Assembly: GCA_003219215.1 (NCBI GenBank)
Contig: QHPY01000038.1
Location: 1-35,151, forward strand
DNA from: Verrucomicrobiota bacterium
Lineage (GTDB): Bacteria > Verrucomicrobiota > Verrucomicrobiia > Chthoniobacterales > UBA10450
DNA length: 35,151 bases
Direction of reading: 5' to 3'
Part shown: positions 6,222 through 19,589 of the stretch, one piece after another
Layout of the letters: the number at the start of each line of letters is the position of its first letter
Numbering within the stretch: the stretch's first letter is position 1
Notes under the pieces: model-generated
Database searches by the model: none
Told to the model about the DNA's origin: nothing
What the model saw: only the letters and a program-made list of their open reading frames with translations
Made by a program: the position numbers and the translations under genes

Positions 6222-6628
6222 TTAAAACCATCTCTCCAACGGCTATGAGGGGACTTACGGCTTGGGACTGGCCTGGCAACATCCGTGAGCTGGAAAACTT
6301 TATTGAGCGGGCGGTGATAATCACTCGCGGCAAATCGCTTGAGGCGCCGCTCCGAGAACTGGAAAGGACCAATACTATCGAGTTCCCGAACGCCAATCAG
6401 CATGAAGTTGATCAAGTCGCCGGAGAAAGAACAAATTCGCCAAACGACAAAACCAGCATCGCTGACGAATACGAGAGAAAGCAGCGCGATGAGATCATTC
6501 GAGCGCTGACTGCATGTAAGGGACGTGTGGGTGGTACCGACGGTGCTGCCGCACGCCTGGGAATGAACCGCACGACTCTCCTTTCTCGCATGAAAAAGTT
6601 CGGCCTCTATGCCAAGCAGTATGCTTGA
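6218..6628 (+). pseudogene. Sigma-54-dependent transcriptional activator (NtrC family), C-terminal fragment
   Basis: The open frame lacks the receiver/GAF and most of the AAA+ domain. It retains the end of the AAA+ module (TISPTAMRGLTAWDWPGNIR, then ELENFIERAVII) and a Fis-type helix-turn-helix at the C-terminus (DEIIRALTACKGRVGGTDGA, then AARLGMNRTTLLSRMKKFG). The first recognisable residues begin within about 5 nt of where the opposing RND fragment ends, so both genes were cut at one joint. No ribosome site or start is convincing. If translated, the product would be only a DNA-binding domain. It lies 40-150 bp upstream of a promoter with enhancer-like repeats. Confidence 0.85.
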
Positions 6629-6666: not shown

Positions 6667-6699
6667 CTCGACACTTTCGACGCTTTCAACCTCTTCGAC
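6667..6699 (+). promoter_or_regulatory. 9-bp-period direct repeat array, copy 1 (candidate enhancer/UAS)
   Basis: Four hexamers at exact 9-bp steps: CTCGAC (6667), TTCGAC (6676), TTCAAC (6685), TTCGAC (6694). The array ends 63 nt before the sigma-54 promoter at 6763. Equivalent arrays lie at 12568 and 15830. Confidence 0.7.
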
Positions 6700-6762
6700 C
6701 TCGGCATATCAAGTTCTGGCGGCCGTCTCCCGAGAATTCAACGATTTACGCCCTCACAAGTT

Positions 6763-6777
6763 TGGCGTGTGGCTTGC
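6763..6777 (+). promoter_or_regulatory. Sigma-54 (-24/-12) promoter
   Basis: TGGCGTGTGGCTTGC matches the TGGC-N7-TTGC consensus with the correct GG-N10-GC spacing. The predicted transcription start is around 6788, which leaves a short leader before ATG 6803 and argues against the upstream GTG 6767 as start codon. Confidence 0.75.
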
Positions 6778-6802
6778 CTTATCGCAAGCGTGGGAAAAAA
6801 CA

Positions 6803-7105
6803 ATGCTGAAGATCTCGCTCGTTGATGGTCGTACCCAGCGTCGGTTGATTGTGGAGGGAAAGCTCATAGCACCCTGGGTAGCAGAGCTAAAGAGTGCGTG
6901 CGAAGACGCGAGAGCAGACCTTTGTGGCCGCGGTCTCGTGGTCGAAATAAAACACGTAACGACGATCAGCCAGGAAGGCGAAAACGTAATCGTTGAATTG
7001 ATAAACGCGGGAATCAGATTTCGCGGCCACGGCGTATTCACGAAACGCGTGCTGAAACAACTGACCCGCCGCGCAGTCGGCAATTTTCGGGAGATGAAGA
7101 AATGA
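6803..7105 (+). CDS. STAS-like (anti-sigma factor antagonist-like) protein
   Basis: 100 residues from ATG 6803, with GGGA at 6792-6795 as ribosome site. A GTG at 6767 would lie inside the promoter. The beta-alpha pattern (RRLIVEGKLIAPWVAELKSA, then GLVVEIKHVTTISQEG and VELINAGIRFRG) resembles STAS domains. In SpoIIAA-type proteins the phosphorylated Ser sits in a DSSG motif. The aligned stretch here is SQEG (56-59), with Glu at the phosphosite position. That suggests no control by phosphorylation, or a fixed phosphomimic; this is inference. It is preceded by a sigma-54 promoter and overlaps the downstream sigma-like gene by ATGA. Homology is distant, so the assignment is tentative. Confidence 0.6.
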   Translation: MLKISLVDGRTQRRLIVEGKLIAPWVAELKSACEDARADLCGRGLVVEIKHVTTISQEGENVIVELINAGIRFRGHGVFTKRVLKQLTRRAVGNFREMKK

Positions 7106-7665
7106 GTGAACCTGCGCACATTCAATTTCGTGAACAGCAAGCAAACCTAAACGCGAGAGGCGAGGACGTTTGCAGGATCTCCAGTGAAGATCTGAATTCG
7201 TTATATCAGCTTTCGTTTCTACTAACGCGTGATCATGAAAGGGCAGAAAGATGCTTTGTAGTCGGTCTTAAAAATCTTATCAGAGGAAACCGCGCGTTCA
7301 ATCAATGGGCCCATGCGTGGGCGAAGCGGATCGTAATCGAGAATGCAATTCATGAGGTGAATCCGCAACCCCGGGTCGCCCATTCCTACTCGTCTGCAAT
7401 TGTTTTCCCCTACGGGGCCCGGCTGTTGACTCCTCCAGGCGGACATTTCGAACTCGAGGCCATTTTAGCGCTTGAAGATTTCGAGCGGTTTGTCTTCGTA
7501 ATGTCCGTCCTGGATCACTACTCCGAGCACGACTGTGCGCTCTTTCTTGATTGTTCGGTTTTGGAAATTCGGGAGGCCCGCACTCGCGCTTTGGAGAAGC
7601 TCATTGACTCGCTCCACATAGCCTTTGTTCACAACGAAGTTTTCACACAGGAGAGAAGTAGGTGA
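7102..7665 (+). CDS. Sigma-factor-like protein (degenerate sigma-70 regions 2 and 4)
   Basis: 187 residues. Residues 30-70 (LNSLYQLSFLLTRDHERAER) resemble the region 2 helices of ECF-type sigma factors. Residues about 130-170 (FVFVMSVLDHYSEHDCALFL, then CSVLEIREARTRALEKL) resemble region 4, including the YS-x2-[DE]-x-A-x2-L helix-turn-helix pattern. The usual region 2.4 promoter-contact residues are not evident, so it may be a sigma mimic or regulator rather than a true sigma factor. Translation is coupled to the STAS-like gene (ATGA). Pairing with STAS-like and RsbW-like proteins in the same window suggests a signalling module. Confidence 0.6.
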   Translation: MSEPAHIQFREQQANLNARGEDVCRISSEDLNSLYQLSFLLTRDHERAERCFVVGLKNLIRGNRAFNQWAHAWAKRIVIENAIHEVNPQPRVAHSYSSAIVFPYGARLLTPPGGHFELEAILALEDFERFVFVMSVLDHYSEHDCALFLDCSVLEIREARTRALEKLIDSLHIAFVHNEVFTQERSR

Positions 7666-7780
7666 TTCATTCTGCCCAACCGAATCTCACTAAATCACGC
7701 CTGTACGCAACGGTGCTGGCGATTACCTGGCGACAATTGAAAGCGGGGAAAACGCACGCATAGCCCGCGGCGAGCGACTT

Positions 7781-8932
7781 ATGGCCTTAAGTAAGCTCCT
7801 GCCTCAAGTCAATGCCGGAGTTTCAGAGCATGTCGAGCAAATCAACCTGGCTATGTTCGGCTTGAAATTGCCGGGCGTTCCGGCGGTGATTGGGCCGTAC
7901 TCGTACAGCTCGGTGGATGCAAACCTAAGTCAGACGCTCTTCAGTTTCGAATCTATCGAGCGTTTTCGCGCTGCTCGCACCCCCGAGCAGGCCGCACAAC
8001 TCACTTACAACGATGTTCTTGACGTCGTGACGCTAGCGGTTGGAAATGCATATCTGCACGTCATTGCGGCTAGCTCGCGTATTGAGGCGCAGCAGGCGCA
8101 GGTGCGTAATGCCCGCACTCTGTACGACCAGGCGCTCGATGAGGGGCAGGCCGGCACTGCTCCACGAATCGATCTTACGCGGACTGAAGTTCAACTGCAC
8201 ACCGAAGAATACAATCTCAGCGTTTCGCGCAATAATTTCGACGTCGCAAAACTCGATCTGAGCCGCGCGATCGGTTTGCCCCTAGGCCAAGAGTTCAATC
8301 TTACTGACCAACTTCCATATTCCGAGATCAATCCGCCTACTGTGGATGACGCGCTGAAGCTAGCGTACAGGTCGCGCAATGACCTCCGCGCCACACTCGA
8401 TTCCGAGAAAGCAGCCGCGCAGAGCCTTTCGGCCGCCAAAGGCGAACGCTTTCCAGTAATCGCTGCCAACGCTGATTACGGCGACATCGGGACGACCTTC
8501 GGGCACTCGCATGGTGATTTTACTTTTCAAGCCGGCGTGAACATTCCCATTTTCACCGGTGGCCGGATCAAAGGCGACATAACCCAAGCCGAAGCTCAAC
8601 TCCGACAGCGCAAAGCCGAAGCCGAGAACGTTCGCGGCCAGATTGACTACGACGTACGCACTGCATTTCTCAACCTGAATGCCGCGAAAGAGCAAGTGGA
8701 AGTGGCCAAGCAAAGTGTCGCACTTGCCAATGAGAGCCTCGCCCGGTCGAAAGACCGCTTCACTTCCGGCGTGACAGACACCGTCGAGGTGGTGCAAGCC
8801 GAGCAGGCTCTCTCCAGCGCCAACGATCAATACATCACCAGTCTTTACAACCACAGCCTCGCCAAGCTCTCACTGGCTCGCGCTCTCGGAGTTGCGCGCA
8901 CCAGCTATGAACAGTACCTCGGAGGGAAGTAA
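7781..8932 (+). CDS. TolC-family outer membrane efflux protein, N-terminally truncated
   Basis: 383 residues from ATG 7781 cover most of an OEP domain protein: FPVIAANADYG, NIPIFTGGRIKGDITQAEAQ, VDTVEVVQAEQALSSAND-like coiled-coil and barrel repeats. No signal peptide is present. The same frame is open back to 7694, and recognisable homology extends upstream of the ATG (ATIESGENARIARGERL). The original start and export signal were therefore lost at about 7715, and the ATG is probably internal. Without a signal sequence the product could not reach the outer membrane. The gene overlaps emrA (TAATG), with which it would form a tripartite pump. Its 5' truncation is one of several abrupt joints in the window. 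Confidence 0.82.
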   Translation: MALSKLLPQVNAGVSEHVEQINLAMFGLKLPGVPAVIGPYSYSSVDANLSQTLFSFESIERFRAARTPEQAAQLTYNDVLDVVTLAVGNAYLHVIAASSRIEAQQAQVRNARTLYDQALDEGQAGTAPRIDLTRTEVQLHTEEYNLSVSRNNFDVAKLDLSRAIGLPLGQEFNLTDQLPYSEINPPTVDDALKLAYRSRNDLRATLDSEKAAAQSLSAAKGERFPVIAANADYGDIGTTFGHSHGDFTFQAGVNIPIFTGGRIKGDITQAEAQLRQRKAEAENVRGQIDYDVRTAFLNLNAAKEQVEVAKQSVALANESLARSKDRFTSGVTDTVEVVQAEQALSSANDQYITSLYNHSLAKLSLARALGVARTSYEQYLGGK

Positions 8933-10230
8933 TGTCGAACAAGATCGGAAACCAAACTACGGAAGCGCGCGAAGAAGACGTTACGGCGCTTTTGGAGCAC
9001 GAGCCTGAAGTCATGAAACCGGACGTAGCAAGTGAGAGTCTTCAGAACCCTTCAACCACTCGCCGCAGGAAAACGCTCCTGATCTCCATCGCAATCGTCA
9101 TTGTTGCTGTGATCGGAGATTACTTCGTTCGCAGTGCCTTCCTCTACGAAGACACAGACGATGCGCAAATACATGGCCACGTAATGCCCCTTAGCGCCCG
9201 CATTAATGGTCAGGTGCAAGAAGTGCGCGTGATTGAGGGCCAGCTAGTGCATGCCGGCGATGTACTCGTAGTCATAGATCCGAAGGACTACAAGATCGCG
9301 GTTAATCAAGCGAGGGCAAATCTGGCCGACGCGGAAGCAACTGCTGCCAGTTCGATGTGGAGCGTGCCGGTTACCTCTGCAACGGCCTGGAGCACTCTTG
9401 ATTCCTCACAGACGGCGATTGACAACGCGGGAGCTGGGGTAAAAGCAGCTGAGCAGAATCTGGAGTCAGCAAAAGCTTTGCTCTTACAGGATGAAGCCAA
9501 TGCCGAAAAAAGCGACGCAGACCTCGCTCGTTACGCGCAGCTCGTCGCGAAGGAAGATATTTCGCGGCAACAATACGACCAAGCTTTAGCTGCGGCGAAG
9601 GCGAATCGCGCTGCTGTTGTTTCCGCCACCGCGGCCGTTCAGTCCTACGAGCAGGCCCTTCATCAGGCAGAAGGAAAGCTCTTGCAGGCGAAAGCCGACC
9701 TTCGCAGTGCCCAGACTGCTCCGCAGCAGGTTTCCGTGGTGCGTGCCAAAGCCGACGCTGCCAACGCACAGGTAGATCAACGCAAGGCCCAGTTGGATCA
9801 GACTGAACTCGATCTCAGCTATACCATGATCCGCTCTCCCGTGAATGGAATTGTTGGGAGAAAGACTGCGGAAGTCGGCCAGAACGTGAGCATCGGACAA
9901 GAACTCGTGGACGTCGTTCCCCTCGACGATGTCTGGGTGACAGCCAACTTCAAAGAAACGCAACTTGAGCACATGAGAGCGGGTCAGCCAGTCGAGATAA
10001 AGGTCGATGCGTACGGCCGGAGCTGGAAAGCACACGTAACCAACCTCGGCGGCGGGACCGGTTCCGTGTTCAGCTTGCTGCCCCCGGAAAACGCGACCGG
10101 AAACTACGTAAAGGTCGTGCAACGGGTGCCGGTGCGAATCGATTTCGACCGCTCTCCGACACAAGACTTCAACGCTGAAGGACTACTGAAACCAGGCTTG
10201 TCAGTCGGGCCCAGCGTGAGGGTCAGATGA
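8932..10230 (+). CDS. emrA: HlyD/EmrA-family periplasmic adaptor (membrane fusion protein)
   Basis: 432 residues. There is a cytosolic N-terminus with an RRRK cluster, one TM helix (about 48-66, TLLISIAIVIVAVIGDYFV), then YEDTDDAQIHGHVMPLSARI, the typical EmrA biotinyl-lipoyl half motif. A long coiled-coil hairpin (about 120-290, Ala/Gln/Glu rich) follows. The second lipoyl half is DLSYTMIRSPVNGIVGRKTA. The beta-barrel region contains DDVWVTANFKETQLEHMRAG. It bridges the inner-membrane EmrB and an outer-membrane TolC. GGAGGGA at 8921-8927 precedes the ATG, which shares its first base with the tolC stop. The downstream emrB overlaps by ATGA. Length and motifs are intact. Confidence 0.93.
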   Translation: MSNKIGNQTTEAREEDVTALLEHEPEVMKPDVASESLQNPSTTRRRKTLLISIAIVIVAVIGDYFVRSAFLYEDTDDAQIHGHVMPLSARINGQVQEVRVIEGQLVHAGDVLVVIDPKDYKIAVNQARANLADAEATAASSMWSVPVTSATAWSTLDSSQTAIDNAGAGVKAAEQNLESAKALLLQDEANAEKSDADLARYAQLVAKEDISRQQYDQALAAAKANRAAVVSATAAVQSYEQALHQAEGKLLQAKADLRSAQTAPQQVSVVRAKADAANAQVDQRKAQLDQTELDLSYTMIRSPVNGIVGRKTAEVGQNVSIGQELVDVVPLDDVWVTANFKETQLEHMRAGQPVEIKVDAYGRSWKAHVTNLGGGTGSVFSLLPPENATGNYVKVVQRVPVRIDFDRSPTQDFNAEGLLKPGLSVGPSVRVR

Positions 10231-11819
10231 GCAACGAGCAAGGCATCACCGCCGACCAGCCAGGGTCGAAACCGAAGGTCAACCCGTGGATCATTGGCGT
10301 GGCGGTTTCGCTCGCTGCATTCATGGAAGTGCTCGATACCAGCATTGCAAATGTGGCCCTCCCCCACATCGCGGGCAACCTCGGCGCAAGCAATGATGAA
10401 AGCACGTGGGTGCTGACGACCTATCTCGTATCCAATGCTATCGTGCTTCCGATCAGCGGCTTTCTCGTTAGCTGGCTGGGACGCAAGCGCTTTTTCCTGA
10501 CGTGCATTGTGTTCTTTACTGCCAGTTCCTTTTTATGCGGTATCGCTCCGAGCCTCGGCTTGCTTCTTTTATTTCGCGTAATGCAGGGCGCATTCGGTGG
10601 CGGACTCCAACCCATGGCACAGGCGATTCTCGCTGACACATTCCCTCCAGCGAAGCGTGGCCTGGCCTTTGCGCTATATGGAATCACTATTGTCTGCGCG
10701 CCTGCCGTTGGTCCCACATTCGGAGGCTGGATCACTGACAACTATTCCTGGCGCTGGATTTTCTACATCAATGTTCCCGTGGGAATTCTGGCTGTGCTGC
10801 TGGTTTATCAGTTGCTCCAAGATCCTCCTGATTTATTCCGCGAGAAAAAGGGAGCGGGAAGGTTCGACTACATTGGCTTTGCTCTGCTCGCCATAGGTGT
10901 CGGGGCTCTCCAGGTCGCGCTCGATAAAGGACAAGAAGATGATTGGTTCGGATCGCATTTCATCACCACGTTGATCGTCATTGCCGCGGTGGGTCTGGTT
11001 TCCCTGGTGATCTGGGAATGGTTCCAGAAGGAACCCATCGTGGACGTCCGTTTGTTCAAGATTTTCAATGTCGCTAGTAGCAACTTGATGTTCTTCGTGC
11101 TTGGCGTGGTCCTCTTCAGCTCGACCGTGCTTCTCCCACAATTTCTGCAAACATTGATGGGCTACACGGCCGAAGCAGCGGGCATGGTGCTGTCTGGAGC
11201 AGCCATTCTCCTCTTGTTCGTTTTACCGCTGGTTGGCCGACTGCTGGCGCGATTCCAGGCCCGTTACCTACTGGCGTTCGGGTGGATCACACTGGCTCTA
11301 GGGATGTATATCTCGTGCAAGCAGCTTGATTTGCTTATAAGTTTTCGGGCCGCTATGTGGATTCGCATTGTGGGTTACCTGCCGGTCGGATTTTTGTTCG
11401 TCCCCCTCACGGCTGCCGGCTACGTTGGCCTTCCAAAGCAGAAAAGCAATGCTGCGGCCGGCCTGATGAACTTCATGCGTAACATCGGGCAAAGCGTAGG
11501 CACGTCGGCCGTAACTACGTTGATTGCACGCCGAAGTCAGTACCATCAGTCCGTACTGGCCGAATACACGCGGACTCCTCGCTTTAATGCGGCTGTCACG
11601 GCGTTAGCGACCCGTCTGACACATGTCGGGCTGGGCGCGCATTATGCGCAGCAGCAGGCGCTCGCCAGAATGTACGCCATGCTAATGGGACAGGCCCAAG
11701 CCATTTCCTACGTTGAGGTGTACTGGCTTCTGGCAATTGTTTCCGTATTGATGTTTTTCTTGTCTTTCTTGCTCGCTAAGAACCAACCGGGTGCAGGCGG
11801 TCAAGTTGCAATGCATTAA
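10227..11819 (+). CDS. emrB: DHA2-family MFS multidrug exporter (EmrB type, 14 TM)
   Basis: 530 residues of a 14-helix drug:H+ antiporter. Recognisable DHA2 motifs include VLDTSIANVALPHIAGNLGA (motif D1), STWVLTTYLVSNAIVLPISG, WLGRKRFF (motif A), RVMQGAFGGGLQPMAQAIL (motif B), and GPTFGGWITDNYSWRWIFYI followed by NVPVG (motif C region). It lies in the inner membrane and works with EmrA and a TolC partner to export hydrophobic compounds. It overlaps emrA by 4 nt and is followed 10 nt later by a small membrane protein gene, probably in the same transcript. The protein appears complete, so this pump could still work with a TolC encoded elsewhere. Confidence 0.94.
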   Translation: MSNEQGITADQPGSKPKVNPWIIGVAVSLAAFMEVLDTSIANVALPHIAGNLGASNDESTWVLTTYLVSNAIVLPISGFLVSWLGRKRFFLTCIVFFTASSFLCGIAPSLGLLLLFRVMQGAFGGGLQPMAQAILADTFPPAKRGLAFALYGITIVCAPAVGPTFGGWITDNYSWRWIFYINVPVGILAVLLVYQLLQDPPDLFREKKGAGRFDYIGFALLAIGVGALQVALDKGQEDDWFGSHFITTLIVIAAVGLVSLVIWEWFQKEPIVDVRLFKIFNVASSNLMFFVLGVVLFSSTVLLPQFLQTLMGYTAEAAGMVLSGAAILLLFVLPLVGRLLARFQARYLLAFGWITLALGMYISCKQLDLLISFRAAMWIRIVGYLPVGFLFVPLTAAGYVGLPKQKSNAAAGLMNFMRNIGQSVGTSAVTTLIARRSQYHQSVLAEYTRTPRFNAAVTALATRLTHVGLGAHYAQQQALARMYAMLMGQAQAISYVEVYWLLAIVSVLMFFLSFLLAKNQPGAGGQVAMH

Positions 11820-11829
11820 CGAGGACGTG

Positions 11830-12024
11830 ATGGCAAAGAAACACGAATCGAAGTGGAATATCGAAGAAATGACCGACCCAGATATATACGACGCAATTCT
11901 CTACCTTGAGCCGGATCCACAATACCGGAAGCAGCACAATGACGATACCGCTTTTGTGATTTGCCTCTGCGTGGTGATCCTGCTGTTGGGGCTCTTAGGG
12001 TTTATGTGTCTTTACTACCGGTAG
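11830..12024 (+). CDS. Small membrane protein, paralog 1 (WNIE..TD..IY.AI.YLEP family)
   Basis: 64 residues from ATG 11830 behind GAGG (11821-11824). The N-terminal half is acidic and soluble with WNIEEMTDPDIYDAILYLEP. The C-terminal third is one hydrophobic helix (FVICLCVVILLLGLLGFMCL) ending in YYR. A paralog with the same layout lies at 13302. It follows emrB by 10 nt. It is probably a tail-anchored inner-membrane protein with a cytosolic binding segment. I do not know a function. Confidence 0.7.
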   Translation: MAKKHESKWNIEEMTDPDIYDAILYLEPDPQYRKQHNDDTAFVICLCVVILLLGLLGFMCLYYR

Positions 12025-12053
12025 GAGGGGCAGTTTTCGGGCAACACTTGAAA

Positions 12054-12506
12054 ATGACATTGAACCCGGCAAGCATTTCGGCGCTAGCGGCCATCTTTGG
12101 CTCGCTTACCGGCGCATTGGCTTCCAGTTTGAGCACCTGGATTACCCAACGTCACCAAGATCGACGTGATCTCCTCGCCAAAAGAATTTTTCACCGCGAG
12201 CAGCTGTATTCAGACTTCATCAGCGAAAGCGCGCGAGCCGTTGCTGATGCCATCCAACATAGCTTTCAAGACCCGAATAAGCTCATCCCTACCTACGCAC
12301 TTGTAAGCCGAATACGTTTGAGCTCGTCAAGGGAAGTGCTCACGAGCGCTGAACGGGTCATTCAGCACATTATTAGTACGTATTCGGAGCCAAACCTTAC
12401 TCCCGACCAAATGCAGTCCAGAGTGGCCGTGCGCGCGGATCCTTTGCGCGAGTTCAGCAATATCTGCCGGGCTGAACTTGAGGCGATGCAAAAGCAACTA
12501 CGATAA
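12054..12506 (+). CDS. Conserved hypothetical protein with N-terminal TM and helical domain
   Basis: 150 residues from ATG 12054 (MTLNPASISALAAIFGSLTG). The N-terminus is a Gly/Ala/Ser-rich membrane helix (about 7-25) followed by TWITQRHQDRRDLLAKRIF and a long charged helical region with probable coiled coil to the end (ELEAMQKQLR). This architecture (short anchor, TQR-x-Q, charged helices) occurs in hypothetical proteins of many soil bacteria and I do not know a function. The frame upstream of ATG 12054 overlaps the preceding gene and is not favoured. The ribosome site is weak (TTGAAA). Its transcription may follow from the emrAB unit. Confidence 0.65.
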   Translation: MTLNPASISALAAIFGSLTGALASSLSTWITQRHQDRRDLLAKRIFHREQLYSDFISESARAVADAIQHSFQDPNKLIPTYALVSRIRLSSSREVLTSAERVIQHIISTYSEPNLTPDQMQSRVAVRADPLREFSNICRAELEAMQKQLR

Positions 12507-12567
12507 CGCGCTCTGGGTACGAAATCGCGTTCAGGCCCTCCGCCCCATGTGTGCTCAAAGTCAGTCT

Positions 12568-12600
12568 CTCGTCCACTTCAACACTTTCAACACATTCGTC
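12568..12600 (+). promoter_or_regulatory. 9-bp-period direct repeat array, copy 2 (candidate enhancer/UAS)
   Basis: Four hexamers at exact 9-bp steps: CTCGTC (12568), TTCAAC (12577), TTCAAC (12586), TTCGTC (12595). The array ends 66 nt before the sigma-54 promoter at 12667, the same arrangement as at 6667 and 15830. Confidence 0.68.
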
Positions 12601-12666
12601 AGCCATGGGACGGATGATTTTGCATTCCACGCTCTAGAACTCAATCACTTAATTCAGAGTGATATT

Positions 12667-12681
12667 TGGCATGAGCCTTGC
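12667..12681 (+). promoter_or_regulatory. Sigma-54 (-24/-12) promoter
   Basis: TGGCATGAGCCTTGC matches TGGC-N7-TTGC exactly. The predicted start site near 12692 leaves a leader of about 36 nt before ATG 12729, which helps choose that start over ATG 12696. Confidence 0.76.
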
Positions 12682-12728
12682 CTTCTCCATGAGTGATGGC
12701 ACGGAAATTCCAAATGGAGATTGCAGCT

Positions 12729-13214
12729 ATGGTTCAAACTCGATCTCTGTCGCCTCTGCCGCGAAATGCTCATTCTGTTCCCTTCGTCGAGTTGCGACAG
12801 TCACTTGCCAGTCAAGTTTCCGCCATCTCGCTATTCGTGGATCAACTCATGCGCTTCATTCTGAAGTTTCGAAACGCAGATGGAAGTGAGACCGACATCG
12901 AGATGGCCCTGCACGAGGCCCTAGTAAATGCCGTGATGCACGGCAATGGTGAGAACTCTTGCAAGCGCGTGTACGTCACGTGCCGCTGCTACGTTGACGG
13001 AGAAGTCTCGATCACAGTTCGGGACGAGGGACACGGCTTCAACAGCGAGACAATACCGGATCCCACAAGTCCAGAAAACCGGATGTTCACGCACGGTCGC
13101 GGAATCTACCTGATGAAGACGTTAATGGACGAAGTCTCTTTCGAAGAAGGCGGCGCGGTTGTCATGATGCGGAAGAAATCTAACGCAAGCTCAGCCGAAC
13201 AGAGGAAACCATAA
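12729..13214 (+). CDS. RsbW/SpoIIAB-like ATP-binding protein (anti-sigma/serine kinase-like)
   Basis: 161 residues from ATG 12729, chosen because GGAGA (12716-12720) is 8 nt upstream and the promoter lies just before. ATG 12696 in the same frame would be almost leaderless. The GHKL (HATPase_c) fold is shown by the N box EMALHEALVNAVMHGN, the G1 box VRDEGHGFN, and the G2 box HGRGIYLMKTLMDEV. The absence of sensor or histidine-acceptor domains fits the RsbW family, which binds sigma factors and phosphorylates STAS antagonists. Partners could be the STAS-like and sigma-like products at 6803 and 7102, driven by the same promoter type. The partner assignment is inference. Confidence 0.85.
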   Translation: MVQTRSLSPLPRNAHSVPFVELRQSLASQVSAISLFVDQLMRFILKFRNADGSETDIEMALHEALVNAVMHGNGENSCKRVYVTCRCYVDGEVSITVRDEGHGFNSETIPDPTSPENRMFTHGRGIYLMKTLMDEVSFEEGGAVVMMRKKSNASSAEQRKP

Positions 13215-13301
13215 TGACGAGGACATTCTCAAGGTTCGCGCATGCAATACTTCGAGCCGGAGCCCTCGTATGCGTGCTTAACAAACCGACGAGAGTGCAT
13301 T

Positions 13302-13490
13302 ATGTTGATAAATGAGGAGCCCGATTGGAATATCGAAGACCTAACCGACGTCGAGATATATGCCGCGATTCGCTATCTTGAGCCTGAGTCGCAATGTCCG
13401 AACGAGGGGAATAACGATTACGGAGTTGTGATCTGCGTCTGCTTGGATATCGCCCTGATAGCCTGCCTAGCGTTCCTCTGGTTCGACTAA
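13302..13490 (+). CDS. Small membrane protein, paralog 2 (WNIE..TD..IY.AI.YLEP family)
   Basis: 62 residues from ATG 13302, with GAGAG about 8 nt upstream. It contains WNIEDLTDVEIYAAIRYLEP, nearly the same as in the protein at 11830, then a variable acidic/Asn linker and a C-terminal hydrophobic helix (VVICVCLDIALIACLAFLWF). An upstream in-frame start at 13242 has no ribosome site. It lies 87 nt after the RsbW-like gene and is probably co-transcribed with it. Two copies of the same small protein flanking the ATPase gene suggest a shared role in the signalling or efflux module. The function is unknown. Confidence 0.7.
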   Translation: MLINEEPDWNIEDLTDVEIYAAIRYLEPESQCPNEGNNDYGVVICVCLDIALIACLAFLWFD

Positions 13491-13509
13491 AGATAATAAG
13501 CGTTTTTCG

Positions 13510-14925
13510 TTATATATCCCAGATGCACCTGCCATTTTGAAAGAATGAAATTAGTCCGTCTTCACTGATTTTGAGTACATTTCCAAATCGTGAAGCAGAG
13601 ATGGCCGCGGTAGTACGACCGCCCTCGATGGTCTCGGGAAACACATCGGTCAAGTCCGGGTGTCGTAGGATGGCCCCGAAGGCGAGCAGGTTGGATTGAG
13701 AATCCAGAACGATTCCTCCGTCGATCCTGGCCACAGTCTCCAGCACGGCACTCGGGACATCCATGATGCGCTTCTGGTGCAACAGGTAATGAAATTGGTC
13801 TTTTGCGCCTGCGACCGCGTGTTGGCCATGATTGGGAAGTGACGTAAGTAAATCAGTCCGCGAGACAAGGCTTGCGGCCATCTCTGGGTCGTCCAGCACA
13901 ACCAACAAGCCACCGCGACGATCCTCTGCGAGATTCAAGGCGGTAGTAAACAAACGTTCTGCCAGTTCTGTGTCGCGGATGGCCTCCTTCCAAAGGTCGT
14001 ATTTACGCTGGGCGTCTGTAAGTCTCCATCGGCCATCCAGGAAGTGGAAAACCTGAACGCCGTCAGCGAAGATCTTCATCTCTCCGTTGGGAGTAAGAAT
14101 CATGCAAACATGTCCGCCGCACAGGGTCGCCCTCGCGTGCGTCTTATACCTCGCCGGTGGTGGGACGGGAAGATTAGTGTCGGCGAAAGGGCGAGCCCAT
14201 TCCTCGACATCGACGATTTCTGCGAGGAATCCATTCTGGTCTACCAGCGCGAGTGTCTGCAGCCCATCACAGAGACGATAGAAACTGCGAATTGAGGTGA
14301 CCGCGGGAGAATAGCGCAATGCGCCGACAGGCGTGACCGGCGGCTCATGGCACGGATCGGGGTATTTGCCGAATAGCAGCGCGCCCGTCGAGATACGCCG
14401 GTTTTCGTATGTGCTAAGAGAGCTGGTCCGAAGAACTTCAATCGTATCTTCTACCCGGTCTGGCCCTTGCCAAATTTCCTGCGCGTATGGATCGCCATCA
14501 ATGCAAGCTGAAACATATCGATCCTCCGGGAGTCCACGAAAAAGCTCGAACCGTTTTTCTACGCGATCGGTGTCCGCGATCGTCCTGTAGCGAGAGTCCA
14601 GGACGGCTCCGATCCCTTTCAACAACTTTAGTTCTTCAGTGGAGAAGGGTTCGTTGCGAGTCAGGGAGTAGCGAGATCCGAGCCAACACAAGTCTAATGA
14701 GGTCTGATCAGAACTATTGGTCATGCCGCAAGCGGCAGGCTCCAGACCCGTTTCGATCGCTTGCAAGTTCGCCGAAGGAAAGAAGTAATTGATTCCGCCT
14801 TCGACGAGTTTTCCGTAGAGGCCATCGATAAAAGCAGGAGCACGAGTCCGTTCTGGCATGAGAACGATCCGACGAGTCAGGATGATTTCCTTAATCAGAT
14901 GATGACAAACGAGTAAGCGACTCAT
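13510..14925 (-). CDS. Diadenylate cyclase-fold (DisA_N/DACNV-like) domain protein
   Basis: 471 residues. The last about 140 residues match the DAC (DisA N-terminal) fold: LLVVLDDPEMAASL, then ARIDGGIVLDSQSNLLAFGA (DGG at 402-404 where DisA has DGA), then ETIEGGRTTAAISASRF (where DisA has the RHR motif), and ISEDGLISFFQNGR. The RHR motif reads RTT, so synthesis of c-di-AMP looks lost. The layout resembles DACNV proteins, which are proposed nucleotide sensors. The N-terminal about 300 residues contain no domain I recognise. Start ATG 14925 has AAGG 6 nt upstream and overlaps the end of the upstream secreted-protein gene by 35 nt, so the two are coupled. The tail converges on the small membrane gene at 13490. 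Confidence 0.6.
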   Translation of the reverse strand: MSRLLVCHHLIKEIILTRRIVLMPERTRAPAFIDGLYGKLVEGGINYFFPSANLQAIETGLEPAACGMTNSSDQTSLDLCWLGSRYSLTRNEPFSTEELKLLKGIGAVLDSRYRTIADTDRVEKRFELFRGLPEDRYVSACIDGDPYAQEIWQGPDRVEDTIEVLRTSSLSTYENRRISTGALLFGKYPDPCHEPPVTPVGALRYSPAVTSIRSFYRLCDGLQTLALVDQNGFLAEIVDVEEWARPFADTNLPVPPPARYKTHARATLCGGHVCMILTPNGEMKIFADGVQVFHFLDGRWRLTDAQRKYDLWKEAIRDTELAERLFTTALNLAEDRRGGLLVVLDDPEMAASLVSRTDLLTSLPNHGQHAVAGAKDQFHYLLHQKRIMDVPSAVLETVARIDGGIVLDSQSNLLAFGAILRHPDLTDVFPETIEGGRTTAAISASRFGNVLKISEDGLISFFQNGRCIWDI

Positions 14926-15538
14926 GGCCTTGCTGCAACTGGGCGGTTACGTTCTCTTGCGGATCACGCGAATAGTGGAGCAAGACAATTTCTCGGGATC
15001 GCTTTCGAATTGCCAGATTGTTCAAATCAGTTTTCGAAAACTGGGACTGAAGCCTATTGCCGTCAAGAACTTCTCTACTCCGGGCAAGGACACTCACGTT
15101 GTAGGCTGTTGTTTGCTGGGCAATTACTTCAAGCCTGTAGGTTCCGGTCACAGGCCCGCATACCTGGAGTATTCCTCGGCAGGTATCCGCACCGCCCAGA
15201 TCGTCGCAATTGACGTAACCTTGCGCCACCGGTAATGCATCCCAGGCGCGTTTGGTAAGCGGGTCAAAGCCAATCCTGCGTCCACGAGGATCGGTCAATA
15301 CCACACCTATATTGGGTGGGCCATTGTTATCGGTACGGAAGTCAATATCGAGCTCGCCCAGTGAAAAGCAATCCTCAGTATCGTCGGGATCTACATCGTC
15401 CATGAAATCGTGAATGCGCGCATCAGCCAACCTGGAGACGTGCACGAAATTAGCGTGGCTCAGCTCAGGCCGCGGGATGATCACCATAATAAATGTGAGT
15501 ATGTTCACAATTCTGCAATTCAACACATTCGCTCCCAT
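14891..15538 (-). CDS. Secreted protein of unknown function, coupled to the DAC-fold gene
   Basis: 215 residues from ATG 15538; a GTG at 15559 is an alternative start. The N-terminus has a hydrophobic stretch (IVNILTFIMVII) followed by PRPELSHA, consistent with a signal peptide cleaved after SHA. The mature part is acidic (DDVDPDDTEDCFSLGELDID) with four spaced Cys residues (near CF, NCDD, TCRG and QVCG) that could form disulphides. It has beta-rich segments, IGVVLTDPRGRRIGFDP and GTYRLEVIAQQTTAYNVSVL, like an immunoglobulin-type or pre-peptidase-like beta-sandwich. No family was recognised. The 35-nt overlap with the following DAC-fold gene implies joint expression, so it may supply the extracytoplasmic half of a sensing pair. 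Confidence 0.6.
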   Translation of the reverse strand: MGANVLNCRIVNILTFIMVIIPRPELSHANFVHVSRLADARIHDFMDDVDPDDTEDCFSLGELDIDFRTDNNGPPNIGVVLTDPRGRRIGFDPLTKRAWDALPVAQGYVNCDDLGGADTCRGILQVCGPVTGTYRLEVIAQQTTAYNVSVLARSREVLDGNRLQSQFSKTDLNNLAIRKRSREIVLLHYSRDPQENVTAQLQQGHESLTRLSSSD

Positions 15539-15829
15539 GCTTGCCCTGTCAAGCAGCACATTTCCAGGAAGAAGACGTGATTCTTCACGACGGGATTCCG
15601 TGTAAAGTCGTACTCTTTAAATTCCACACGCTATTCCTTTGACCAGACCACTTCGTGGCGTAGCGCAGGCGAACCCAGCCCCTTTCTCTCGGCCAGCTCG
15701 TTCGCTCGACTCGAATGTCGCAATCCATTTGCCAAGAAATCTCACCGCCGAGATTCGTTCCTCTCTTCGTTTTCTCAAGCGATTAGGCGTATGCCCGCCA
15801 CTCTCTTAGCGAATTCGGCTGTCGAGTAA

Positions 15830-15862
15830 TTCGGCTGTCTCGACACTTTCGACCTCTTCGAC
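15830..15862 (+). promoter_or_regulatory. 9-bp-period direct repeat array, copy 3 (candidate enhancer/UAS)
   Basis: Four hexamers at exact 9-bp steps: TTCGGC (15830), CTCGAC (15839), TTCGAC (15848), TTCGAC (15857). The array ends 64 nt before the sigma-54 promoter at 15927. Confidence 0.7.
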
Positions 15863-15926
15863 ATGGTGCGTGGCGGACGGCCAGAAAAAGTCGTTCATTC
15901 GGCGAGGTCTAGCAACGTCCCGGCTT

Positions 15927-15941
15927 TGGCATGCAAGTTGC
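15927..15941 (+). promoter_or_regulatory. Sigma-54 (-24/-12) promoter
   Basis: TGGCATGCAAGTTGC matches TGGC-N7-TTGC exactly. The predicted start near 15953 gives a leader of about 165 nt before the lipoprotein start at 16118. The leader contains the inverted repeat at 16019-16094. Confidence 0.76.
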
Positions 15942-16117: not shown

Positions 16118-16932
16118 ATGATAAAGCGGACATGTGCAGGATTAATGAGTGCGGTGTTGCTGCTGAATGTACTGGGCTGCAACAACAGTAAGGGTGCGAG
16201 CTTCGGCCCCGCCTCCGCCGCCGGTGGTCGAAGTCGCACCTGTCGTTCAACGGACCGTGCCCGTTATAGGCGAGTGGGTAGGAACGACTGAAGGATATGT
16301 CAACGCGCAGATTCAGCCTCAGGTGAGCGGTTACCTGATTCGTCAGGATTATCGGGAAGGGGCATACGTCAAGAAGGGTCGAGTTCTTTTTGAGATCGAC
16401 CCCCGCCCATTCCAAGCAGCGCTCGATCAAGCTAAAGGGCAACTGGCACAGGAGGAGGCGCAGGTGGCCAACGCTGACCTGAACGTAAAGCGCGACATTC
16501 CGGAGGCGGAAGCTCACGCCATCCCCCAGGGTCAGCTTGATACCGACACGCAGTCGCTCCGCGGGGCGAAGGCAGCAGTCGAGGCCGATCAGGCGGCAGT
16601 CGAACAGGCTCAGTTGAATTTGGGCTACACGAGAGTCGTTTCGCTGGTCGACGGAATCGCCGGAATCACTACGGTGCAGGTGGGCAATCTTGTGGGCCCA
16701 TCCGCGGTGCTCACCTCGGTTTCACAGGTCAATCCGATCAAAGTTTATTTTCCAATCAGTGAACAGGAATATCTGCGCATGGCGGATGGCGGCGCTCAGC
16801 ACAACGTGGACTGGTTGACACACGCTTCGCGAATTCAGTTGCAGATGATTCTGGCAGACGGAGGCGCAGCTCAGCGAACGCCTAGCACTCGTGCAGCTTT
16901 ACCAGGCTCTCGGCGGCGGATGGCAGCAGTAG
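16118..16932 (+). pseudogene. Collapsed RND efflux operon: adaptor (MFP) 5' part joined to outer-membrane factor 3' end
   Basis: ATG 16118 opens a lipoprotein signal (MIKRTCAGLMSAVLLLNVLG followed by Cys), then the frame breaks near 16190. The adaptor body continues one base out of frame (open from 16167): VVEVAPVVQRTVPVIGEWVG, then GYLIRQDYREGAYVKKG, QGQLDTDTQS and ISEQEYLRMADGG. These are typical of AcrA/MdtA-type adaptors. The adaptor stops after LADGG at about 16860. In yet another frame the next 23 codons read EAQLSERLALVQLYQALGGG then WQQ and stop, the C-terminus of a NodT/OprM outer-membrane factor. The adaptor tail, the about 3-kb RND pump gene and most of the outer-membrane factor gene are therefore deleted. 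It has its own sigma-54 promoter. Confidence 0.85.
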
Positions 16933-16987
16933 TGGCGAAATGACAAAAGATTTTGGAGAGGTAGACGTAAAGAAAGGCAGTTTGACA

Positions 16988-17788
16988 ATGAAGACGAAGT
17001 TATTTGTTTCGATACTCGTATTGGTTAGTGTCGTGCCAGGTGCGCTTGCGGCTGGCGCCGAGGGCGAAACGAATGTTCACACTGGAAGCGGTCAATTGCT
17101 TGTTACTCCCGTTGAGGACTCAGCGTCCCCGAATGTGCAAACAGATCCCGGTGTTCTGGCGAACGATCCGAAGCAAGCGTCGCAGGACTTTGACTCTATA
17201 TTGATTGCAATTACGGAGAAGTTCTCTGGCACGCTTGCTGCTATTGCCGACGCTATTAAACGTGGCGAACTAACCACAGATCAGGGGAGAGAGATAAGTG
17301 CACAGCAATATCAGCTGGTCCAAATGCAGTTTGAACTGGTCAGTCTGTGGCGTGAAATGGAGGAACAGGATTCGGCGAACATTCCAACGCTTCAGGCCAG
17401 CCCGGATCTCACGCAAGAAAACGAAGCCGTGGTGGTGGCGTTGCCCTTTTCATCGTTGCAACTCAACCCTTCCATGGCTGAGTACCTCGGTTTGACGCCA
17501 TCCCAAATTGACGCTATCCAGCAAGTGATGGTGCGGGAACAACATAGGCTTGAGCCTTTGATGTCACAGTTTCGAATTACACGAGAGAAGTTTTTTGCAA
17601 TCGGCAGTGAGCGCATGAGCGAGAGCGAGATGAAGAGCCTGGCTGACACGGAAGCAACTGTGTTGGGAAAATTGATCGTCGCCAACGCTCGCATGCAATC
17701 CAAAATCTACAAGATTCTAAGCCCCGAGCAGCAAAAAAAGATCAGCGATTTCGAACGAACGCAGAGGACAGGCCACGATGCGCGTTAA
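16988..17788 (+). CDS. Periplasmic Spy/CpxP-like (LTxxQ) protein
   Basis: 266 residues from ATG 16988, which begins a clear signal peptide (MKTKLFVSILVLVSVVPGAL, cleaved near ALA-AG). An in-frame ATG at 16940 lacks the signal at its very N-terminus and is not preferred. The mature protein is helical, with LGLTPSQIDAIQQVMVREQ followed by paired helices and KIYKILSPEQQKKISDFERT. These match the LTxxQ repeat of Spy/CpxP/ZraP-type periplasmic chaperone or metal-responsive proteins. The N-terminal half is less conserved. It lies 56 nt after the end of the collapsed RND operon and may once have been part of that envelope-stress/efflux unit. The protein appears complete. Confidence 0.65.
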   Translation: MKTKLFVSILVLVSVVPGALAAGAEGETNVHTGSGQLLVTPVEDSASPNVQTDPGVLANDPKQASQDFDSILIAITEKFSGTLAAIADAIKRGELTTDQGREISAQQYQLVQMQFELVSLWREMEEQDSANIPTLQASPDLTQENEAVVVALPFSSLQLNPSMAEYLGLTPSQIDAIQQVMVREQHRLEPLMSQFRITREKFFAIGSERMSESEMKSLADTEATVLGKLIVANARMQSKIYKILSPEQQKKISDFERTQRTGHDAR

Positions 17789-17877
17789 GTAGAAGCGCCT
17801 AATTGCTGCTCCAAGCCCTCGATCTTGGTCTCCGCCTCCTGCAAGAGATCATAGGTCGGCTGCGATGGCACCTGCAT

Positions 17878-18249
17878 GACAAGTTCGCCTTAATGCCGAT
17901 CTTTATCTATCAGCGGACTCGGGACGGTAATCCGGTACACGGCTGGGATCAGTGGGTATCGTTCGGCGGGCGCCCGGAGGTCTTCTTTACCAAGTATCTG
18001 TCGTTGGCGTTCGAGGGAGGCTTCGACCATACTCACAGCAGCACTGGCCAATTCGACGGCTGGCTGCGCAAATTCACCATCGCGCCTCAAATTGGCGCTG
18101 GCCGCCAGTTCTTCAGCCGCCCAGTGCTCCGCGCATTCTTGACTTACGCGAATTGGTCCGATGGACTGCGCGGATTAGTGGGCGGGATTCCCTTCCAGAA
18201 TCGGACGGACGGCCTTACGTATGGAGTGCAAGCGGAAACGTGGTGGTAG
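17878..18249 (+). pseudogene. Maltoporin (LamB)-family porin, C-terminal fragment
   Basis: The frame open from 17803 shows porin homology only from about 17878 (DKFALMPIFIYQRTRDG). It continues through VSFGGRPEVFFTKYLSLAFE, KFTIAPQIGAGRQFFSRPVL, FLTYANWSDGLRG and GLTYGVQAETWW, ending with the aromatic residue typical of outer-membrane barrels. LamB proteins have over 400 residues, and only about 123 remain. Residues before 17878 do not resemble the family, and no signal peptide exists. It ends 17 nt before the sugar permease, so the intact gene was probably the first gene of the sugar operon. Confidence 0.8.
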
Positions 18250-18266
18250 AACCAGAGGTCAGAGAA

Positions 18267-19589
18267 ATGGCGAGTCCAGAAATGACAACGAGCTCATCGG
18301 CAATACAAAATGCTTCGCCGGTTACGATTGCTGAAAACTACACACGTCCACTCGCTATCGTCACCACATTGTTTTTCATGTGGGGTTTTATCACTTCTCT
18401 GAACGACATTCTGGTGCCGCACCTGAAGTCGATCTTTGAACTCAGTTACGCGCGAGTGATGCTGATCCAGTTTGCGTTCTTCTCGGCGTATTTTTTGTTT
18501 TCGATTCCATGGTCGAAGATCGTGAACGCGATTGGTTATCAGAAGACCATGGTGGCTGGCTTGCTGAGCATGGCCGTGGGTGCGTTTTTGTTTCTGCCGG
18601 CCGCGTCCTTTGCGTCGTTCCCGCTGTTTCTGGGGGCGCTCATTGTTCTTGCAGCGGGCATCACCGGTCTGCAGGTAGCGGCAAACCCGTACGTGGTGGT
18701 TCTCGGCAAACCGGCAACGGCCTCGAGCCGGTTGGATCTGACGCAAGCCTTTAACTCGCTCGGCACCACGATCGCTCCAAAACTGGGAGGGCTGCTGATC
18801 CTCAATGCGGTGCCGCTCGCGATTGAAGAGTTACGCCAGCTTTCGCCGCAGGCGCTGCATCTGTACCGCGTGCAGGAGGCTGCCTCGGTGAAGATGCCAT
18901 ACATCGTAATCGGTGTCGCGTTGTTGCTGCTCGCCGTTCTGATCGCGGCGTCCAAGCTGCCGAAGATCCAACATGTGGAATACCGTCCAGGAGAAAAGGT
19001 CAGAGATTCAGTCTGGAGACATCCAAATCTGATCTTCGGCGCACTCGGAATCTTCGCGTACGTGGGCGCAGAAGTCTCCATCGGAAGCTTCCTGGTGAAC
19101 TATTTCGGCCAAGCGGACATTGCGGGTTTGTCCGCAAAGACTGCGGCAGGTTACGTCTCGTTCTACTGGGGCGGCGCCATGGTAGGGCGCTTTCTCGGAG
19201 CGGCGGTTTTGCGCAGGATTAAAACCGGGCACCTCCTGGCCATATGTGCGCTCTGCACGGCAGCCCTCGTCGTCATTTCCATGTTAACCAGCGGGCACGT
19301 CGCCATGTGGAGCATTCTTGCAGTTGGATTCTTCAACTCCATCGTGTTCCCGAGCATCTTTAGTCTTGGAGTGGCCGAGCTTGGGCCTCTGACGGGAAAT
19401 GCATCCGGCATTCTGAATATGGCTATCGTGGGTGGTGCAATTCTGCCGCTTATTCAAGGGGCGATTGCGGATCATATCGGCATTCACCACGCATTCTTTG
19501 TGCCCGTGATCTGCTACTTGTACATCTTGTTCTATGCATTGAACGGATCGAAACCAAACAGTGAACGTTACGTCAGCGCTTACAACTGA
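18267..19589 (+). CDS. Sugar:H+ symporter, FucP/GluP-type MFS
   Basis: 440 residues from ATG 18267. The open frame upstream overlaps the porin fragment and is not used. AGAGG at 18253-18257 may serve as ribosome site. The 12-TM MFS protein carries the FucP-family marks LFFMWGFITSLNDILVPHLK, ANPYVVVLG, DLTQAFNSLGTTIAPKLGG, GAEVSIGSFLVNYFG and GRFLGA. Members import fucose, glucose or galactose. With glk 14 nt downstream, glucose (or another hexose phosphorylated by Glk) is the probable substrate. It is now the first intact gene of the 16.5-kb carbohydrate array. No promoter was identified with confidence, partly because the upstream sequence is a truncated porin. Confidence 0.88.
   Translation: MASPEMTTSSSAIQNASPVTIAENYTRPLAIVTTLFFMWGFITSLNDILVPHLKSIFELSYARVMLIQFAFFSAYFLFSIPWSKIVNAIGYQKTMVAGLLSMAVGAFLFLPAASFASFPLFLGALIVLAAGITGLQVAANPYVVVLGKPATASSRLDLTQAFNSLGTTIAPKLGGLLILNAVPLAIEELRQLSPQALHLYRVQEAASVKMPYIVIGVALLLLAVLIAASKLPKIQHVEYRPGEKVRDSVWRHPNLIFGALGIFAYVGAEVSIGSFLVNYFGQADIAGLSAKTAAGYVSFYWGGAMVGRFLGAAVLRRIKTGHLLAICALCTAALVVISMLTSGHVAMWSILAVGFFNSIVFPSIFSLGVAELGPLTGNASGILNMAIVGGAILPLIQGAIADHIGIHHAFFVPVICYLYILFYALNGSKPNSERYVSAYN

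Follow-up and report, generated by a model that had tools for sequence, protein, structure and literature searches.

The DNA sites of published sigma-54 activators (EBPs) are mostly inverted repeats, and among the EBPs of Clostridiales the upstream activating sequence (UAS) motifs of many are inverted repeats of the type TGT-N10-12-ACA (PMC6615313). A precedent for another arrangement is Nla28 of Myxococcus xanthus. This NtrC-family activator has been proposed to recognise imperfect 8-bp units repeated directly in tandem, often three to five in number, upstream of sigma-54 promoters (PMC9765219). These repeats read CT(C/G)CG(C/G)AG, are irregularly spaced with a mean spacer of about 25 bp, and are mostly intragenic (PMC9765219). 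The arrays described here share with the Nla28 sites direct repeats upstream of sigma-54 promoters, probably for an NtrC-family activator, but differ in their rigid 9-bp spacing, their fixed distance to the promoter and their sequence. The view of an earlier note, made from the sequence alone, that direct repeats are unusual for this family has to be qualified by the Nla28 precedent.

FhlA/NorR/NifA-like systems resemble the present loci in the domain order of the activator (GAF, Sigma54_activat with GAFTGA, Fis-type HTH), in an EBP gene that adjoins its target, and in promoters with a UAS upstream of TGGC-N7-TTGC and an IHF-like site between the two. Unlike in those systems, the UAS here is a 9-bp-phased row of direct TTCRAC units at a nearly fixed distance. 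A TTTCG-like half-site for FhlA was not borne out by the papers found and was set aside. RsbV/RsbW and SpoIIAA/SpoIIAB modules are also similar, in that a STAS protein with an RsbV-like predicted fold and HATPase_c_2 kinase-like proteins are present; here, however, these are putative sigma-54 targets, alongside efflux genes and ECF sigma factors. In the open-access literature, no paper was found on the array motif or on an acidobacterial sigma-54 regulon.

The arrays were seen in a soil-bacterium contig of 35,151 nucleotides (QHPY01000038.1, assembly GCA_003219215.1), the whole of which is called the window below. The earlier note had reported hexamers at a 9-bp period at 6667, 12568 and 15830, with exact promoters 63, 66 and 64 nt past the arrays at 6763, 12667 and 15927, and both observations are confirmed. 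The elements are the following:

6667-6699, plus strand: array 1, four YTCRAC units with a period of 9 bp, read directly, CTCGACactTTCGACgctTTCAACctcTTCGAC
6736-6748, plus strand: IHF-like site in the spacer of array 1, at -27 from TGGC, conserved position, ATTCAACGATTTA
6763-6777, plus strand: sigma-54 promoter 1, exact TGGC-N7-TTGC, TGGCGTGTGGCTTGC
12568-12600, plus strand: array 2, read directly, CTCGTCcacTTCAACactTTCAACacaTTCGTC
12639-12651, plus strand: IHF-like site in the spacer of array 2, at -28 from TGGC, ACTCAATCACTTA
12667-12681, plus strand: sigma-54 promoter 2, exact TGGC-N7-TTGC, TGGCATGAGCCTTGC
15830-15862, plus strand: array 3, read directly, TTCGGCtgtCTCGACactTTCGACctcTTCGAC
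15927-15941, plus strand: sigma-54 promoter 3, exact TGGC-N7-TTGC, TGGCATGCAAGTTGC

Scored by their fit to four YTCRAC units at a 9-bp period (maximum 24), arrays 1, 2 and 3 reach 24, 22 and 23 and take the top three positions on both strands of the window, the next-best non-overlapping position on either strand scoring 19. The exact promoter pattern occurs five times on the plus strand and twice on the minus strand. Arrays scoring at least 22 appeared in none of 300 dinucleotide-preserving shuffles of the window, compared with the three observed, all of which have a promoter, and the geometry therefore exceeds chance, as had been supposed. No Rfam family matched between 5500 and 17000. Genome-wide tests were pattern searches with reversed-pattern controls; the bin that holds the window (2.33 Mb, 199 contigs) gave 10 matches to a looser array-promoter pattern, some overlapping, versus 0 for the reversed pattern, and such "own genome" counts need caution because the contig is probably misbinned.

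The bin, filed under Verrucomicrobiota, is not a clean acidobacterial genome. The transketolase of the window shares 63-68% identity with acidobacterial proteins versus 41-43% with proteins from the bin's genus; the phosphoketolase of the window is found at 62-82% identity in most acidobacterial genomes and is absent from five genomes of the same genus. Moreover, the window is 99.95% identical to QHNQ01000167.1, a scaffold of a second bin filed as Verrucomicrobia AV72, and another contig of the bin (G000:C153, 9.7 kb), which carries two further arrays, matches a contig binned as Acidobacteria gp1 (G063:C138) at 99.96% identity. From these identities and the duplicate binning, the contig is most likely acidobacterial DNA in a foreign bin, which would explain why the array-promoter pattern has no match in 57 relatives of the bin, including five same-genus genomes.

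A scan of the genomes of 84,980 species for three units plus an exact promoter returned 12 stretches; nine of these come from Acidobacteria or coincide in sequence with the window, and three are probably due to chance. Chance or coding sequence seems to account for the matches in Armatimonadota, Phycisphaeraceae and Acidimicrobiaceae, as well as for ten matches at the class level. Including searches of relatives, 30 sites from about 13 genomes were gathered, which are not 30 independent tests because many share descent. The recurrence upstream of -24/-12 promoters that the earlier note had proposed to look for was found, in related Acidobacteria. Between the end of the array and TGGC lie exactly 64 nt in 14 of 21 tabulated sites and 63-67 nt in 19 of them. 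The four-unit description holds in part: across 17 sites, units 2-4 are strongly conserved and nearly always TTCRAC, while unit 1 is degenerate. Four genomes (G349, G433, G087, G220) show only one to a few recognisable units at the corresponding place, and one group (G058, G060, G062, G064) has two extra units that stand 6 bp out of register (offsets 6, 15, 24, 33). At one locus (L028, 3080-3191) and homologous sites, two TTCGAC-type additions lie 6 and 15 bp past unit 4 and make up a second 9-bp pair in the shifted register.

The same data bear on whether the arrays could be repetitive DNA without a regulatory role, arisen by tandem duplication or coding periodicity and placed near promoters by chance. 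Slippage can produce tandem 9-bp units, and outer-membrane protein genes hold similar repeats coding for FN/FD. Against this, the arrays are conserved between genomes and missing from shuffled sequence, and a -24/-12 element follows at a near-constant distance. Triple-array matches numbered 18 in 12 genomes; the four that fall in coding DNA are without a promoter and those between genes have one, so intergenic arrays are restricted to sigma-54 promoters. An origin as mere repeats is very improbable.

The orientation of the units is equally consistent. Exact YTCRAC hexamers across sites number 99 in the forward and 7 in the reverse direction, and adjacent units are 82% identical when read as direct repeats versus 51% as inverted ones, so the direct rather than dyadic reading is upheld and the dyad symmetry of an NtrC-type UAS is not found. 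Spacing of 9 bp dominates between units (54 occurrences), and base-match autocorrelation peaks at lags 9 (0.43), 18 (0.35) and 27 (0.31) over a background of about 0.25, with no peaks at these lags in a control segment. Because TCGA equals its own reverse complement, neighbouring units form TCGA-N5-TCGA, which is formally palindromic, and the arrays might accordingly be dyads, that is, two ordinary EBP dimer sites side by side; inverted pairs GTCGAA-N6/7-TTCGAC also exist in a few sites (G087, G063C207). However, the fourth base is A (TTCAAC or CTCAAC) in 35 of the 99 exact units, which disrupts the palindrome in the same direction in every case, and together with the excess of forward hexamers and of direct identity this makes the dyad reading unlikely. 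The suggestion that the units lie along one DNA face does not hold: at 10.5 bp per turn, a 9-bp step amounts to about 309 degrees of twist, and with an offset of about 51 degrees per unit the units drift off a common face of relaxed B-DNA.

The spacer between array and promoter contains a second conserved element. Most of the 30 sites have a match to 7-9 of the 9 defined positions of the IHF consensus WATCARNNNNTTR, in most sites starting 26-28 nt before TGGC, and one genome (G060) has two perfect matches. For the spacer of array 1, the scan reported a match of equal score at -56. The consensus scan gave no convincing site in the spacer of array 3, nor was a match present in a few others of the 30 sites. 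No other conserved upstream motif at a fixed distance was found. IHF or a relative is a candidate for binding the spacer.

Upstream of array 1 and downstream of all three arrays, the window holds the following genes:

6236-6628, plus strand: 3' end of an EBP gene, left as a remnant that covers the AAA+ lid and the Fis-type HTH (tblastn 69% identity over 131 aa; Pfam AAA_lid_14, HTH_8)
6803-7105, plus strand: protein with a STAS domain (RsbV/SpoIIAA-like), whose gene opens the operon (alignment A1, AlphaFold2, Foldseek)
7102-7665, plus strand: ORF of 187 aa, no Pfam match
7781-11819, plus strand: tripartite efflux genes by Pfam, OEP (7781-8932), HlyD (8932-10230) and MFS (10227-11819)
12693-13214, plus strand: RsbW-like HATPase_c_2 protein (Pfam E 5e-24)
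16167-19589, plus strand: efflux genes by Pfam, HlyD-type adaptor (16167-16943), LTXXQ (16940-17788) and MFS (17952-19589)

The EBP remnant corresponds to residues ~424-554 of a relative of ~554 aa and ends 38 nt before array 1; no complete AAA+ domain is left in this copy. At the same place, three other loci (L017, L022, L028) encode a full-length homologue, a complete GAF-AAA+-Fis protein of ~535-554 aa that ends about 33-37 nt before the array. These proteins have Sigma54_activat (PF00158; E 5e-73 in L028:1378-3042) and an intact GAFTGA loop, read as GHEKGAFTGA. For HTH_8 (cut-off 22), the window remnant scores 24.3, above the threshold, and L028 scores 21.3, just below it. The HTH residues are modelled at pLDDT >90, and their Foldseek matches include DNA-binding domains of sigma-54 activators and Fis, with E-values that are not significant.

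An array or partial array adjoins an EBP homologue at seven loci (L017, L022, L028, L102, L105, G349, G433). Of the 399 genomes of the class, 11 encode a homologue at least 65% identical across most of the protein, and the strict array pattern occurs in 7 of these 11 compared with 11 of the 388 genomes without a close EBP (Fisher p 3e-8), the matches in the latter being mostly coding chance matches. In some EBP genomes (G220, G427, G433b), no more than one or two units can be recognised. Sister EBPs of ~50-54% identity have no such arrays nearby. In the bin itself no full-length copy of the linked subfamily was found; one contig (C133) starts inside a gene of this subfamily, at the contig edge. 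Two homologues (G063:C207, 8043-9451, and G060:C169) seem to be split by frameshifts and are possibly pseudogenes or assembly errors.

From this linkage, the local EBP is the probable binder of the arrays. Fis-type HTH dimers usually bind dyads, and binding to head-to-tail 9-bp units would therefore need an unusual arrangement. For this very reason it can be argued that another direct-repeat regulator, such as an OmpR-type response regulator or a repressor, binds the arrays and modulates the promoters, with the EBP binding elsewhere or unspecifically: OmpR/PhoB-type factors typically use direct repeats, and a two-fold symmetric Fis-type dimer is no obvious fit to such units. Yet it is the EBP gene that adjoins the founding array in many genomes and a close EBP homologue that co-occurs with arrays, whereas no second regulator gene was seen recurring directly upstream of them, and, apart from the IHF-like site, no further motif is kept at a fixed distance upstream. 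Recognition by another regulator is thus quite improbable, more so than the dyad reading, and the EBP is retained as the candidate.

Remnants of the EBP tail precede secondary arrays in the window, in G064 and, twice, in G060. One in G060 is a fragment of residues 400-554, and secondary arrays in G060 and G064 are preceded by vestiges of 22 and 28 residues of the same HTH, at the same distance from the array as at the intact locus. The regulon therefore seems to have grown by copying of the 3' end of the EBP gene, the array and the promoter to other operons.

The first target gene, 6803-7105, encodes a protein modelled with pLDDT 86, for which Foldseek returned RsbV (6m36, E 2.6e-4, TM 0.68) as well as SpoIIAA complexes, and a STAS fold closest to RsbV and SpoIIAA is predicted. 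Evidence from sequence only is weak, with weak STAS matches in 5 of 12 homologues. By eye, the serine phosphorylated in RsbV/SpoIIAA is seemingly absent from alignment A1, which has ISxEGE instead, and control by phosphorylation may have been lost in this family. Between arrays 2 and 3, the minus strand (13510-15559) contains two ORFs of 471 and 222 aa with no Pfam match. In other genomes the STAS gene recurs as the target at most EBP loci, and further targets are ECF sigma factors, RsbW-like proteins, OEP, HlyD- and RND-type adaptors, a pyridine nucleotide oxidoreductase, GH15, and OmpA-like and TonB-receptor-like proteins. At four loci (L085:10390-12057, L087:5874-7541, L090:1600-3417 and, on the minus strand, L088:906-2327) a STAS-like domain continues in frame into an outer-membrane efflux protein or efflux adaptor; these open frames are either odd fusions or contain a missed internal start with a signal peptide. 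The three target genes, which had been called unrelated, instead belong to a set of STAS, RsbW-like, ECF sigma and efflux functions, and this set, with the outer-membrane proteins, suggests a response to envelope or efflux stress.

Array, spacing, direct orientation, IHF-like site, EBP linkage and EBP-tail remnants can all be read from the DNA, and we consider it likely that the arrays are sigma-54 UASs bound by the EBP across an IHF-bent spacer, in a dispersed regulon grown partly by tail copying. Each array would serve as the UAS of its promoter, a role consistent with the recurrence, the 63-67 nt spacing and the linked EBP gene. The TTCRAC units are probably recognised by the one-component EBP (GAF sensor, AAA+ with GAFTGA, Fis-type HTH), the gene of which immediately precedes the founding array in relatives. 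A bend in the ~64-nt spacer, probably made by IHF or an HU-like protein, would bring the bound AAA+ ring to the sigma-54 polymerase at -24/-12. The EBP would thereby turn on the neighbouring STAS gene and also dispersed operons for RsbW-like kinases, ECF sigma factors, MFS/RND efflux and outer-membrane proteins, recruited partly through copies of the EBP 3' end with array and promoter; array 1 of the window would have arisen in this way, which left the EBP tail behind. The sigma-54 regulon with its rigidly spaced direct-repeat enhancer and linked EBP is regarded as real and the enhancer as unusual; its mechanism, including the identity of the binder, the use of IHF, activation and the inducing signal, is what we infer. 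A bolder reading, held tentatively and with some doubt, is that of a distinct enhancer class, in which a Fis-type EBP assembles on 9-bp half-sites arranged head to tail, either four of them or four and a further two in shifted register, at a fixed distance to -24/-12, and in which the regulon expands via copies of the regulator gene's tail with enhancer and promoter.

The finding provides a sigma-54 regulon whose activator, enhancer and targets can all be put to the test, in a phylum for which no published one was found in the open-access literature. If the EBP binds head-to-tail 9-bp units, this would be a departure from the dyad rule for NtrC-family activators and would illustrate how half-sites in a phased row can load an AAA+ activator. 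The EBP-tail remnants beside secondary promoters would be a visible record of operon recruitment via the downstream control region of a regulator.
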